A stretch of 64,000 nt of DNA from contig NZ_SZPX01000004.1 of the NCBI RefSeq assembly GCF_005217605.1, forward strand, positions 1 through 64,000, written 5' to 3'. The position numbers were made by a program, and so were the translations under genes. The stretch comes from Sulfurimonas crateris (GTDB lineage Bacteria; Campylobacterota; Campylobacteria; Campylobacterales; Sulfurimonadaceae). Shown in pieces: positions 1,911 through 36,618 of this stretch (position 1 is the first letter of the stretch; the number at the start of each line of letters is the position of its first letter). The notes under the pieces are model-generated. The model made no database searches and was not told the DNA's origin. It saw only the letters and a program-made list of their open reading frames with translations.

Positions 1911-2210
1911 TTGACTTTAAAACTACATCCTCTTGCGGAAAATGAGTTAGTAATTGCACTCAACTATTACTTTGAAATAAGCCCAAAACTAGAAAAAAAA
2001 TTTTTATCTCATATTGACAAACAATTCAACGATATCCTAAGTTCTCCAAATTTATATCAATATGAGACTGAAACATCTCAAAAAGTTGTAATGAAGAAGT
2101 TTCCATACATCATAATATATGAAAAATATGAAGATATTATAATGATATTGGCTATCTTTCATACAAAACAAAATCCAAAAAAACTAATGCAAAGAAATAA
2201 CAATACCTAG
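1911..2210 (+). CDS. ParE/RelE-family toxin
   Basis: A 99-residue protein beginning at TTG 1911, two bases after the antitoxin stop, so translation is probably coupled. The pattern fits the RelE/ParE fold: LHPLAENELVIALNYY at the N-terminus, an I..I..SP..Y segment, then MKKFPYIIIYE and a final strand with AIFHTKQNPKKL. The HxxxNP ending is typical of ParE-like toxins, which act on gyrase; other members cleave mRNA, and the sequence alone does not decide between them. Its position beside an IS110 end fits horizontal acquisition. Confidence 0.75.
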   Translation: MTLKLHPLAENELVIALNYYFEISPKLEKKFLSHIDKQFNDILSSPNLYQYETETSQKVVMKKFPYIIIYEKYEDIIMILAIFHTKQNPKKLMQRNNNT

Positions 2211-2223
2211 AGGAAACAGTTTA

Positions 2224-3624
2224 ATGACAATTTACGATTCAGTGCAAAAAACAAAGAGGGAGTTTATCCCTCAAGAGAGCGACAAAGTGAGCCTTTATGT
2301 GTGCGGTCCTACTGTTTATGACGATGCCCACTTGGGACATGCAAAAAGCGCTCTTGTTTTTGACCTTTTAACTAGAGTTTTAAAGGCTGAGGGCTACGAT
2401 GTTACCTATGCAAGAAACATAACGGATATCGACGATAAGATCATCAACAAAGCGAGCCAAAACGGCAAAGAGATAAAAGAGATAACAGATTTTTATACCG
2501 AAGCCTACCACAAAGAGATGGAGAAGCTTGGCGTAAAACGGCCAGATCTTGAGCCAAAAGCAACCGAATCGCTTGAAGCGATGTTTGAGCTGATACAAAA
2601 GCTTATCGATAGCAACCATGCCTACAAAACAGAAGACGGCGATGTCTATTTTGACACCTCAAGCGACAGTGAGTACCTCAAGCTCTCTTGCAGAATTCAA
2701 GATGAAGATGACAAAAAACAGCGTGTTGAGAGCTCCTCACAGAAAAAGAACAGTGCAGATTTTGCTCTATGGAAAAGCGTAAAAGACGACAGTGTAACAT
2801 TTGATTCCCCTTTTGGCAGAGGTCGTCCGGGATGGCACTTGGAGTGTTCTGCCATGATAGAGAAGCATTTGGCGCATAAAGGCAGAAAGTTTGCCGTAGA
2901 TATTCACGGCGGCGGGGCTGACCTGCTCTTTCCTCACCATGAAAACGAAGCGGCGCAGACAAGATGTGCGACAGACCACGCACTCGCAAACTACTGGATG
3001 CACAACGGTTTTGTAAATATAGACGGCGAGAAGATGTCTAAAAGCTTGGGAAACAGCTTTTTTTTGAAAGATGCTCTAAAAGTTTACGACGGAGAGGTTC
3101 TGCGTTTTTATCTTCTAAGTACGCACTACAGAAGCAACTTCAACTTCAACGAAGATGATCTGCTCGCTTCCAAGAAGAGACTAGACAAGATTTACAGACT
3201 CAAAAAACGCCTATTTGGGCTCACGCACAACAACGAGAAGACTGAGTTTCAGGAAAATCTTTTAAAAGCCCTAAACGATGACCTCAACATATCCGCTGCT
3301 TTGGCTCTCATAGATGAGATGCTATCTCACGCCAACGAGACGCTTGATGCGGCGGGAAAACACAAAGAGCTTAAGCGTGATACATTATCAAACCTTGCAT
3401 ACATAGAAGAGGTTTTGGGGTTTGGCGTAAAAAACCCTTACGAGTATTTTCAGTGGGGAGTCAACGAAGAGACAAAGGCAAAGATAGAGACGCTCATAAA
3501 GCAGAGAGATGAAGCAAAAAAAGCTAAAGATTTTGCAACCTCAGACAATATCCGCGATGAGATACTCTCCTTTGGCGTAAGTCTTATGGACACGCCTCAA
3601 GGTACGTTTTGGGAGAGGGTATAA
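2224..3624 (+). CDS. cysS: Cysteine--tRNA ligase
   Basis: Charges tRNA-Cys in the cytoplasm. The 466-residue length is normal. Class I signature HLGH is at residues 36-39 and KMSKS at 270-274. The catalytic zinc ligands are recognisable: Cys27 in CGPT, Cys208 in HLECSA, and the His/Glu of FPHHENE near 238-241. The C-terminal part (about 330-466) is the helical anticodon-binding region ending in DTPQGTFWERV. Its stop is followed at once by a hairpin shared with the convergent gene. Confidence 0.97.
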   Translation: MTIYDSVQKTKREFIPQESDKVSLYVCGPTVYDDAHLGHAKSALVFDLLTRVLKAEGYDVTYARNITDIDDKIINKASQNGKEIKEITDFYTEAYHKEMEKLGVKRPDLEPKATESLEAMFELIQKLIDSNHAYKTEDGDVYFDTSSDSEYLKLSCRIQDEDDKKQRVESSSQKKNSADFALWKSVKDDSVTFDSPFGRGRPGWHLECSAMIEKHLAHKGRKFAVDIHGGGADLLFPHHENEAAQTRCATDHALANYWMHNGFVNIDGEKMSKSLGNSFFLKDALKVYDGEVLRFYLLSTHYRSNFNFNEDDLLASKKRLDKIYRLKKRLFGLTHNNEKTEFQENLLKALNDDLNISAALALIDEMLSHANETLDAAGKHKELKRDTLSNLAYIEEVLGFGVKNPYEYFQWGVNEETKAKIETLIKQRDEAKKAKDFATSDNIRDEILSFGVSLMDTPQGTFWERV

Positions 3625-33687: not shown

Positions 33688-35784
33688 ATGGTTGAAAACA
33701 TACTAAAAAGAGATGGCACATATAAAGAGTTTTTATCTTTTAAGATAGAAGACGCTATTAAAAAAGCTTTCAGATCTCAAAATGTAACTTATGATAGTAC
33801 AGTATTCTTCAACGTCCTAGAAAAGATCAAAAACAAAAGGATCGTTGCCGTAGAAGATATTCAAGACCTCATAGAAAAAGAGCTCTACAAAGCGAGATAT
33901 TTTGACGTTATGCGCTCTTTCATGGTATACCGCCACACTCACAAGATGCAAAGAGAGCACGAGCTTGATGAAGATACAACTTACATCAACTCAACTCAGA
34001 CGATCGAAGAGTATATCGGAGGAACCGACTGGCGCATTAAAGCCAACTCAAATACAGGCTACTCAAACGCAGGCCTTGTAAACAATACAGCGGGTAAGGT
34101 TATCGCAAACTACTGGCTTGATAAGATCTACTCAAAAGAGGAAGGTTATGCACACCGCAACGGTGACTACCATATTCATGATCTGGATTGTCTGACGGGT
34201 TACTGTGCTGGTTGGAGCCTTAGAGTCCTGCTTGATGAGGGTTTTAACGGTGTTAGAGGAAGGGTTGAGAGCAGCGCTCCTAGACACTTCCGTGAAGCTT
34301 TAGGGCAGATGGCAAACTTTTTGGGTATTTTGCAGTCTGAGTGGGCAGGCGCTCAAGCATTCAGCTCGTTTGATACCTACTTGGCACCGTATGTATTTAA
34401 AGACAAACTGCCGTTTTATGAGATAAAAAAAGCGATAAGAAGTTTTGTCTACAACCTTAACGTACCTGCACGCTGGGGTCAGTCTCCTTTTACGAACATC
34501 ACGATCGACTGGACTGTTCCTGAAGATCTAAAAGATCAGACTCCTACATCTATGCAGACTCATCTATTTAAAAATATTTTGGACAGCGAACTTGAAGAGA
34601 TGGCAAAACATAGAGGGGCTAACTCTCTTGAGGATATGACTTACAAGCACTTTCAGCCGGAGATGAACCTTATAAACAAAGCGTACTATGAGATCATGAC
34701 AGAGGGTGATCTAACGGGTCAGCCTTTTACGTTCCCTATCCCTACCGTCAATATTACTGAAGATTTCGACTGGTACGGCGAAAATACAGACATCCTTTTT
34801 GAAAATACGGCTAAGGTCGGTTCATCATATTTTCAAAACTTTATCGGCTCGCAGTTCAAAAGAGACGAGAGAGGAAATCTGGTAGAGAATCCAGAAGCGT
34901 ATAAACCGGGACATGTTCGCTCTATGTGCTGTCGTCTGCAGTTAGACTTGCGTGAGCTTCTAAAGCGCGGAGGCGGACTGTTCGGTTCAGCTGAGATGAC
35001 AGGCTCGATAGGCGTTGTAACGATTAACATGGCTCGTTTGGGCTTTCTTTACAAAGGCAATAAAGAGGCTCTTTACAAGCGTCTTGATGAACTTATGGAG
35101 CATGCAAAATCGACTCTGGAGAAGAAGCGCGTATTTATTCAGGAGATGTATGACAGAGGGCTTTTCCCTTATACAAAAAGATATCTTCCTGGATTTAAGA
35201 ACCACTTCTCTACTATCGGGGTAAACGGCATAAACGAGATGATAAGAAACTTTACAAGTGACAGCTACGATATTGCAGACAACAGAGGCATCGAGTTTGC
35301 AACGGATATTCTAAACTACATGAGAGACAGAATGGTAGAGTTTCAAGAAGCAACGGGGAATCTTTATAATCTCGAAGCTACTCCTGCAGAAGGGACTACG
35401 TACAGATTTGCAAAAGAGGATAAGAAACGCTACGGCGACTCTATCCTTCAAGCGGGAATGGGAGAGAATATCTACTATACGAACTCCTCTCAGATCCCTG
35501 TTGATCTCACAGACGATCCGTTCAAAGCACTAGAGCTCCAAGATGATCTTCAGTGCAAATATACGGGAGGAACTGTTCTTCACCTCTATATGCAGGAGAA
35601 GATAAGCTCAACTGAGGCGTGCAGAAAACTGGTTAAAAATGTAATAACAAACTTCAGGCTGCCGTATATTACGGTGACACCTCTATTTTCAGTTTGTCCA
35701 AAACATGGATATATAGCGGGTGAGCATGAATTTTGTCCAAAATGTGACGAAGAGCTTTTAAGCGAAGTCACGATCGCATCTTAG
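33688..35784 (+). CDS. nrdD: Anaerobic ribonucleoside-triphosphate reductase, large part lacking the glycyl-radical loop
   Basis: 698 residues. An N-terminal ATP-cone (about 1-90, ILKRDGTYKEFLSFKIEDAIKKAF) precedes the ten-stranded catalytic barrel. Thiyl-radical Cys candidates are in MCCRLQLDL, and GSIGVVTINMARLG is a barrel strand. The C-terminus ends with a zinc knuckle of the type CPKH and CPKC (3 Cys, 1 His), then DEELLSEVTIAS and the stop. Normal NrdD continues after the zinc site into a glycyl-radical loop, which is missing here and is encoded by the next small gene. It makes deoxynucleotides without oxygen. Confidence 0.93.
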   Translation: MVENILKRDGTYKEFLSFKIEDAIKKAFRSQNVTYDSTVFFNVLEKIKNKRIVAVEDIQDLIEKELYKARYFDVMRSFMVYRHTHKMQREHELDEDTTYINSTQTIEEYIGGTDWRIKANSNTGYSNAGLVNNTAGKVIANYWLDKIYSKEEGYAHRNGDYHIHDLDCLTGYCAGWSLRVLLDEGFNGVRGRVESSAPRHFREALGQMANFLGILQSEWAGAQAFSSFDTYLAPYVFKDKLPFYEIKKAIRSFVYNLNVPARWGQSPFTNITIDWTVPEDLKDQTPTSMQTHLFKNILDSELEEMAKHRGANSLEDMTYKHFQPEMNLINKAYYEIMTEGDLTGQPFTFPIPTVNITEDFDWYGENTDILFENTAKVGSSYFQNFIGSQFKRDERGNLVENPEAYKPGHVRSMCCRLQLDLRELLKRGGGLFGSAEMTGSIGVVTINMARLGFLYKGNKEALYKRLDELMEHAKSTLEKKRVFIQEMYDRGLFPYTKRYLPGFKNHFSTIGVNGINEMIRNFTSDSYDIADNRGIEFATDILNYMRDRMVEFQEATGNLYNLEATPAEGTTYRFAKEDKKRYGDSILQAGMGENIYYTNSSQIPVDLTDDPFKALELQDDLQCKYTGGTVLHLYMQEKISSTEACRKLVKNVITNFRLPYITVTPLFSVCPKHGYIAGEHEFCPKCDEELLSEVTIAS

Positions 35785-35801
35785 TAAAGGAGGTAAAAAA
35801 G

Positions 35802-35954
35802 ATGAGTAAAAACGAAGCTTTGGCTATGTTGAAAGAGAGAAGACAAAAATGTATCGTTTACACAAGAGTTATGGGTTATCACAGACCTGTAGAGAGTTTC
35901 AACGTAGGTAAAACCGGTGAGCACAAACAGAGAAAACAGTTCGCTGAGTGCTAA
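35802..35954 (+). CDS. Separate 50-residue NrdD glycyl-radical domain
   Basis: A short gene 17 bases after the nrdD stop, in a different frame, with a near-perfect AAAGGAGG at 35786-35793 and ATG 35802. Its residues 17-36 (CIVYTRVMGYHRP and ESFNVG) match the end of NrdD proteins, where the Gly of RVxGY is the stable radical carrier; here it is Gly25. GKTGEHKQRKQF follows, also as in NrdD tails. The first 16 residues (MSKNEALAMLKERRQK) resemble the linker after the zinc site. It would bind the large chain in trans and be activated by NrdG, whose gene overlaps its end. Confidence 0.88.
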   Translation: MSKNEALAMLKERRQKCIVYTRVMGYHRPVESFNVGKTGEHKQRKQFAEC

Positions 35955-36618
35955 GGTTATCTATGATTTGACATCATTCACCCACTTGGATTATCCAGAC
36001 CATCTATCATGCATAGTGTGGTTTAGTGGGTGCAATATGCGCTGCGATTACTGCTACAATAAAGATATAGTTTTTGCCAAAGATGGCAAATATAGCTACG
36101 ACGACATTCTCGATTTTCTAAAAACAAGAGTAAATCTTCTCGAAGCGGTTGTTTTATCAGGCGGAGAGGCATCATCGTATGACTTAGTGCCGTTTTGCCG
36201 CAAGATAAAAGAGCTTGGCTTTAAGATAAAGCTAGATACCAACGGTACGAACTTTTTGCATATTAAAGAGCTTATTGAAGAAGATCTTTTGGATTATGTT
36301 GCACTCGACTACAAAGCGCCAAAAGCAAAATTCACTCAAATAACGCACTCAAACAAGTTTGACGAATTTTCTAAAACGCTTGACTATCTAATAAAGAGAG
36401 ATATAGAGTTTGAAGCAAGGACGACCCTTCATGCAGACCTGCTCGATGCGGCAGACGTGAATGACATCATGGCTGACCTAAAAGAGCGCGGCTATAAAAC
36501 CCTTTTTTATATTCAGGAGTTTTTAGACACAGGAGAAAATATTGCAGGGCTCAACGCTCCAAAGAGCAAGTTTGAGAGAACACTTCTGCATGACACTTTA
36601 GAAGTTAGCTTTAGATAA
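35917..36618 (+). CDS. nrdG: NrdD-activating radical SAM protein
   Basis: 233 residues from GTG 35917, overlapping the glycyl-radical gene by 38 bases in another frame; CTG or TTG codons downstream are possible alternatives, since homology clearly begins near AKVIYDLTSFT. The [4Fe-4S] motif CxxxCxxC is in GCNMRCDYCYN, and the SAM-binding GGE is in LSGGEASSY. It makes the glycyl radical on NrdD from SAM and reduced flavodoxin or ferredoxin. The overlap suggests translational coupling to its direct substrate. Confidence 0.93.
   Translation: MSTNRENSSLSAKVIYDLTSFTHLDYPDHLSCIVWFSGCNMRCDYCYNKDIVFAKDGKYSYDDILDFLKTRVNLLEAVVLSGGEASSYDLVPFCRKIKELGFKIKLDTNGTNFLHIKELIEEDLLDYVALDYKAPKAKFTQITHSNKFDEFSKTLDYLIKRDIEFEARTTLHADLLDAADVNDIMADLKERGYKTLFYIQEFLDTGENIAGLNAPKSKFERTLLHDTLEVSFR

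Follow-up and report, generated by a model that had tools for sequence, protein, structure and literature searches.

The class III ribonucleotide reductase gene nrdD of Sulfurimonas crateris lies in the 64,000-nucleotide stretch of DNA analyzed here (NCBI RefSeq assembly GCF_005217605.1, contig NZ_SZPX01000004.1, positions 1 to 64,000), which is called the window below. It was found that the gene is divided into two open reading frames (ORFs) which are followed by nrdG, all on the forward strand. The first ORF (33688-35784) encodes a large chain of 698 amino acid residues with an ATP-cone, the catalytic barrel, the finger loop, and a zinc knuckle, and has no glycyl-radical motif. The Pfam ATP-cone model matches residues 4 to 86, and the catalytic domain model NRDD matches residues 120 to 689 with its positions 2 to 532 (530 bits); TIGR02487 is also over its cut-off (407 bits). 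The finger-loop motif MCCR, of the double-cysteine type (residues 413-416, nucleotides 34924-34935), is invariant among the eight chains of an alignment (A4), as are C670, H673, C683, and C686 of the predicted zinc knuckle CPKHG...CPKC (residues 670-686, nucleotides 35695-35745). The ORF ends after this knuckle with a TAG codon at 35782-35784.

The second ORF has its own ribosome-binding site, AAAGGAGG (35786-35793), and its own ATG at 35802; it runs for 50 codons to 35951 in another frame (+2 relative to the large chain), and its stop codon ends at 35954. The 50-residue product consists of the glycyl-radical loop and the C-terminal tail, matching positions 530 to 562 of the 562-position NRDD model with 28.7 bits (cut-off, 26.2 bits). 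The model is thus divided near position 531; the large chain lacks positions 533 to 562, so that by these coordinates no glycyl-radical loop lies on its own polypeptide, and the next gene supplies positions 530 to 562. The full-length NrdD model NF006126 (684 positions) is likewise shared between the large chain (positions 2-657, 1090 bits) and the small chain (positions 648-682). The predicted radical carrier is Gly25 in the motif TRVMGYHRP (codon at 35874-35876), which sits within CIVYTRVMGYHRP; this assignment is based on the C-terminus of full-length NrdD models and on alignment with other small chains and with fused NrdD. The third gene, nrdG, encodes the dedicated activating radical S-adenosylmethionine enzyme (TIGR02495, NrdG2; 184 bits against a cut-off of 131 bits). 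Its longest frame (35917-36618) begins at a putative GTG start codon inside the small gene, and the overlap of the two genes proposed in the initial annotation stands for this frame, with the start codon uncertain. The other parts of that reading, namely an NrdD ending after its zinc knuckle and a separate 50-codon gene for the radical motif, are confirmed.

The small gene is conserved beyond chance and is under strong purifying selection, as its pN/pS (the ratio of nonsynonymous to synonymous change) was 0.04 to 0.22 in nine comparisons with nine relatives. A genome-wide search with NRDD at E ≤ 0.001 gave no match besides the two chains and no full-length NrdD, and a model built from small chains found no place in the whole genome other than 35802-35954 even at E ≤ 10. 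The small gene is the sole copy for this NrdD, as had been supposed. Two further families, the class I/II large subunit and the class I small subunit, are each matched once in the genome, which points to a class I reductase being encoded as well.

How widespread is the division? NRDD matches over the cut-off were found in 41 of the 79 genomes of the sample that includes the window's own genome. The loci of 30 relatives were read, and 28 have a large chain and a separate small gene; the two fused ones (L003 and L004) belong to a different subfamily with an RITGYL motif. The division is not a lone frameshift of one strain. In the phylum sample, at least 207 of 397 genomes have an NRDD match, and in a one-genome-per-species scan at least 570 of 582 stretches encode a relative, the best 80 being mostly Pseudomonadota by title. 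In the class sample around Thiobacillus thioparus, NRDD was found in 26 of 232 genomes, of which the match table gives 19 as split, five as fused, and two as fragments or weak matches. The small chains are strikingly alike, most of them sharing C-x-V-[YW]-T-R-V-M-G-Y-H-R-P. Altogether, 265 loci with a large chain comprise 199 split, 59 fused, four cut at a contig end, and three unclear ones (after reading, L173 is split, L193 is fused, and L178 is a fragment); since many loci were fetched by matching the small chain, these ratios are not frequencies. MCCR is present in 190 of the 199 split loci by a simple pattern, and nrdG lies in the fetched stretch of 185. Three genomes had appeared to carry a large chain alone and were rejected as such: single-contig G168 and G295 have a small gene below the score limit, and the locus of G406 is cut at a contig end.

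Matches were also found by tblastn on 28 plasmid records, including those of Cupriavidus necator H16 (pHG1), Bradyrhizobium, Paracoccus, Azospira, and Sulfuricurvum kujiense. On several plasmids RefSeq labels the small gene nrdD and the large gene ribonucleoside triphosphate reductase. Four of the 28 matches lie inside a gene labelled only ribonucleoside triphosphate reductase, and of these four the three that were read are all fused. The initial annotation knew of no widely described equivalent; it needs correcting on two points, namely that the split is usual in this enzyme lineage and no oddity, and that the small gene already bears the name nrdD on several plasmids. The C. necator H16 operon is split, and the arrangement recurs in Pseudomonadota. 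NrdD of H16 was reportedly given as 76.2 kDa in a 1999 paper, which is about the size of the large chain alone. NrdDG of H16 has been reported to be essential for complete denitrification (in the accessible part of PMC2864759). The genome paper of Cupriavidus metallidurans, in the part available, lists NrdD as Rmet_5137 and NrdG as Rmet_5139; I infer from the sequence that the number skipped between them is the small gene.

The distribution of split and fused forms was overlaid on a tree of 96 representative large chains (515 barrel columns, with the ATP-cone and the C-terminus left out), drawn from 217 distinct well-covered chains, 162 split and 55 fused. At least 11 changes between the two states are needed, nine of them forced by well-supported branches, and the shuffled mean is 29; the tree is unrooted, was made by a quick method, and has four long branches. 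NrdDs of three motif types are split at the same boundary: type A is the window's type (TRVMGYHRP), type B is SRVVGY[LHF]RP (sampled in the phyla of an Elusimicrobiota metagenome-assembled genome and of Deltaproteobacteria bacterium GWA2_54_12), and type C is RRITGYLVG. The fused L131-L133 lie in the window's clade among split rows and belong to the same taxonomic order as the window. The fusions of Acidiphilium (L290) and Actinomyces (L289) lie among split rows in a clade rich in Pseudomonadota. Within type B, the fused L217 and the split L234 form a sister pair whose branches measure 0.06 and 0.08. The simplest reading is that there were several fissions and several fusions, some of them recent, the direction of which an unrooted tree does not prove. 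Two further loci, L265 and L266, have an independent split in the RITGYL subfamily, where a large chain ending in YPHTPKWD is followed by a small chain of about 55-60 residues. Large NrdD frames of 970-1205 residues were also seen (L268, L269, L280, and L461); in the first three the NRDD match is interrupted by an insert, possibly an intein.

In my opinion, these genes encode a functional two-chain ribonucleotide reductase of class III, and I would give this reading a probability of roughly 0.87. The large chain would contribute the ATP-cone and the zinc knuckle as well as the barrel, in which the catalytic cysteine loop lies, while the 50-residue chain would supply the radical loop and the C-terminal tail by docking in trans. 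NrdG, the product of the next gene, would take a hydrogen from Gly25, and the radical would pass from Gly25 to the cysteine in each turnover. The small chain may be replaceable after oxygen damage. The analysis itself shows that both genes exist and are conserved, that they occur together with nrdG, that nature has fused these same pieces, that unlinked and lone copies exist, and that the fold is plausible; docking in trans, activation by NrdG, and catalytic turnover are inferred. The two-polypeptide interpretation offered in the initial annotation is supported, and neither of the two outcomes that it named as refuting turned up: relatives within this subfamily are for the most part split and not uninterrupted, and one indel could not account for the varied frames and spacings of the split loci.

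For the fold, the pair of T. thioparus, whose genes are in phase, was modeled as one chain with the intervening stop codon read as glycine. With 30 alignment rows, the mean predicted local distance difference test score (pLDDT) was 84.8 and the predicted template modeling score (pTM) was 0.79; residues 691-730, which are most of the small chain, scored 81 to 90 by tens. The best structural matches of the model are class III reductases, and other glycyl-radical enzymes come next at a Z score of about 20. Residues 101-736 were aligned with 4u3e_B (Z 34.9, root-mean-square deviation 2.8 over 528 residues). Alignment to the model extends into the small chain for 4u3e_B (to residue 736), 8p2s_B (732), and 1h7b (716), and stops at 636-637 for 8p27, 8p28, 8p2c, 8p2d, and 4con, these ranges giving first and last residues only. 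The structure 4u3e is from Neisseria bacilliformis, and 1h7b is from phage T4. It is plausible that the small chain takes its place in the class III fold. In cryo-electron microscopy of Prevotella copri NrdD, the radical domain was ordered with ATP and too mobile to be seen with dATP (according to part of PMC11226230); a detachable loop thus fits what is known of the one-chain enzyme. Several points weigh against the two-chain enzyme. The evidence for it consists of genes and a predicted fold, and the aligned ranges are known by their end residues. The folded chain is the read-through chain of a relative, being neither two chains nor the window's pair, whose frames differ. Residues 671-690 of the model, the linker and the N-terminus of the small chain, are poor (56), and a first fold, built on 15 similar rows, was of poor overall quality and unusable (pLDDT 67.6). 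The RefSeq names of the small gene are automatic, and 14 of the 199 split loci have no nrdG match in the stretch fetched.

Small genes were also found alone. Split NrdD of type B is present in 43 genomes of the Elusimicrobiota sample, 11 of which show one or two extra small-chain matches; the difference from genomes with a fused type B NrdD (0 of 11) is not significant (p = 0.09). I read 12 such lone loci of nine genomes, and none has a large chain or nrdG. PHROGs comparisons of ten proteins, neighbors or partners at seven of these loci, gave matches to an endolysin (L244), an integrase (L248), phrog_1501/DUF5675 genes (L248 and L251), and a metallo-protease (L247). In L246 of genome G816 (2071-2790, minus strand), the loop and a virion structural protein (phrog_6121, head and packaging) are joined in one continuous reading frame, so that virions might carry this NrdD radical loop with them. 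For nine of the 12 lone genes, the tested neighbors are nothing clearly phage-like, or were tested partly or not at all. Lone copies also occur on plasmids of Allochromatium vinosum and A. tepidum, and the whole A. vinosum plasmid record has no other NRDD match. The lone copy of Magnetospirillum fulvum (L261, 2110-2622) was rejected as a spare, since an apparent remnant of an NrdD ATP-cone precedes it; it more likely represents what is left of a second operon that kept its small chain. Genome G839 has two lone copies at contig ends and is ambiguous. L255-L260 were rejected as lone NrdD loops, having an N-terminal part of their own and another motif; they are glycyl-radical-like proteins of about 100-140 residues with TGYY/VGYF type motifs, in genomes with other NrdD types.

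Viral copies are numerous. Of 158 IMG/VR stretches, 146 code for a type A small-chain relative, and 79 of the 80 loci fetched were readable, with no large chain in any. Searches with the window's proteins found no large chain and no NrdG in 88 viral loci (L295-L382). The whole motif with its glycine is present in 84 of the 88, in 67 distinct sequences, although the pattern itself requires the glycine and is no test of conservation; L374, L377, L378, and L382 were not read by it, and the L378 copy has a stop codon inside the match. A Pfam search of 50 and 39 whole viral records (86 distinct, possibly fragments) found only the radical segment of NRDD (model positions 506-562), which is over the cut-off in 47 of the 50 and in all 39. 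Nine of ten neighbors of eight viral loci match a named role in PHROGs, such as major head protein, terminase, baseplate wedge, tape measure, exonuclease, and integrase. The archaeal virus ANMV-1 (KP703175) encodes a protein of 144 residues with an NrdD radical loop at its end (L491, 3686-4120) between a prohead protease gene and a crossover-junction nuclease gene, with no large chain among the 18 annotated features shown. Six lone chains of phages (L301, L319, L333, L357, L368, and L373) have an extra cysteine-rich N-terminal part. Among 80 viral loci of type B, 47 are lone, four are fused, three have a large chain near, and 26 were not read by the pattern. Other viruses depart from this small-chain-only picture. 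A viral large-chain search found that 31 of 64 stretches encode a large chain, a figure that makes no fair ratio with 146 of 158 because different patterns were used. Of these 31 loci, 19 encode a long fused chain and five encode the loop separately, close to the large chain (L460, L462, L464, L487, and L490); L474 has its loop in a shorter frame, and no loop was found by the pattern in the remaining six.

The simplest reading of the phage copies is that they would provide the host enzyme with a spare or additional radical subunit, by analogy with T4 Y06I for pyruvate formate-lyase. More generally, I lean toward the view that the radical loop is an exchangeable module, which bacteria maintain as an inexpensive subunit of its own, lone loops being supplied by phages, prophages, and at least one archaeal virus, inserted into the large chain of the host, and activated by its NrdG. 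They would then probably keep up the deoxynucleotide supply during infection or after oxygen damage, as spare parts for making DNA precursors. The main alternative to the spare-part reading is that the phage copies block the host enzyme or its activase instead of supplying a working loop. Phages often disable host metabolism, some copies carry the cysteine-rich or virion-protein parts mentioned above, and the viral copies are known here from their sequences. Blocking is nevertheless the less likely role, given the whole motif with glycine in nearly all of the varied viral loci (within the limit of the pattern) and the working spare part for pyruvate formate-lyase that T4 is reported to carry (in the accessible part of PMC8683613).

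Lone viral chains also bear on the two-chain enzyme itself, because they imply that a small chain can have uses of its own. Might the large chain need no radical loop, or draw on a different radical source, the small chain being only a repair part or a regulator? This is improbable, since no second radical loop of this type exists in the genome, nrdG accompanies the great majority of split loci, and the fused versions restore the usual one-chain plan. Still less probable is a programmed frameshift or stop codon read-through that joins the frames into what is really a one-chain enzyme. Fused one-chain enzymes do exist, and some relatives have both frames in phase, separated by a single stop codon. 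However, in 167 distinct split loci the relative frames 2, 1, and 0 occur in 71, 51, and 45 cases and the spacing varies from an overlap to a gap of 298 nucleotides; no single indel can explain this. When the start of the small gene was picked so as to favor ATG and a ribosome-site core, an ATG could be chosen in all 167 loci and a core of at least five bases in 151, and by the same rule such a core precedes 530 of 14458 ATGs in 150 of the split loci. In addition, small genes occur without any large chain nearby, and in the Elusimicrobiota genome G788 the only small-chain match (L494, reverse complement, 1988-2215) is on another contig than the large chain (L493, 840-2897), each gene lying inside its contig. 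G788 was rejected as a carrier of an extra copy, since this single small gene lies away from the large chain; the two are a naturally unlinked pair, and neither fetched stretch contains nrdG. Frameshift and read-through were rejected on these grounds. A sequencing error or decaying gene is next to impossible and was already refuted by the relatives; a Bradyrhizobium plasmid copy (L035, classed as split and left out of the tree) does have a large chain broken into two frames near residue 623, but the arrangement recurs across many genera and the small gene is under strong purifying selection.

The two-chain enzyme is thus retained, and both the unlinked G788 pair and the lone viral and phage-neighbored copies favor the suggestion in the initial annotation that an independent supply of the small chain is possible. 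With the radical loop as a separate protein of 50-70 residues, the loop could be added, labelled, and replaced in order to study assembly, activation, and oxygen damage. In searches of an open-licence full-text library (subscription papers lie outside it), no conserved two-gene NrdD and no NrdD spare part was found described.

Among known systems, one-chain class III NrdDs (4u3e, 8p2s, 1h7b, and others) resemble the window's enzyme in the barrel, the ATP-cone (in most), the zinc knuckle, the RVxGY loop, and the NrdG partner, and differ in that the window's radical loop is a separate translated gene. Phage nrdD genes in several pieces, six cases in one survey, are due to introns, inteins, or unexplained breaks in single phages (as far as the accessible part of PMC3653736 goes), whereas the window has a conserved two-gene plan at the radical-loop boundary. 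Closer in plan are class II NrdJa and NrdJb of Pseudomonas aeruginosa, two cistrons of one operon which are both needed (PMC4520616). They belong to another class, and the small part of NrdJ does thiol-disulfide exchange, while the small chain of NrdD would carry the radical. Split NrdJ had been called the only split reductase of cellular life; if the two-chain NrdD works as read here, it would be a second kind.

The small chain can also be compared with autonomous glycyl-radical proteins. The Gly_radical domain of the GrcA/YfiD and pyruvate formate-lyase type, which I take to be PF01228, has no match in the window's small chain (E ≤ 1) or in ten lone proteins (E ≤ 0.1), and all 11 are over the cut-off of PF13597. 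Like YfiD/GrcA and T4 Y06I, one of which is phage-borne, the small chain would be a small glycyl-radical protein completing a large barrel protein. It differs in that no other loop was found for the window's NrdD; those proteins repair pyruvate formate-lyase after cleavage by oxygen, and the intact full-length partner expected beside a GrcA/YfiD-type protein is absent from the window's genome. Only YfiD and Y06I have been validated, both for pyruvate formate-lyase, and parts for other enzymes may exist (from the portion of PMC8683613 available). If the reading given here is true, spare parts for other glycyl-radical enzymes become directly testable, and phages would be their likely carriers.

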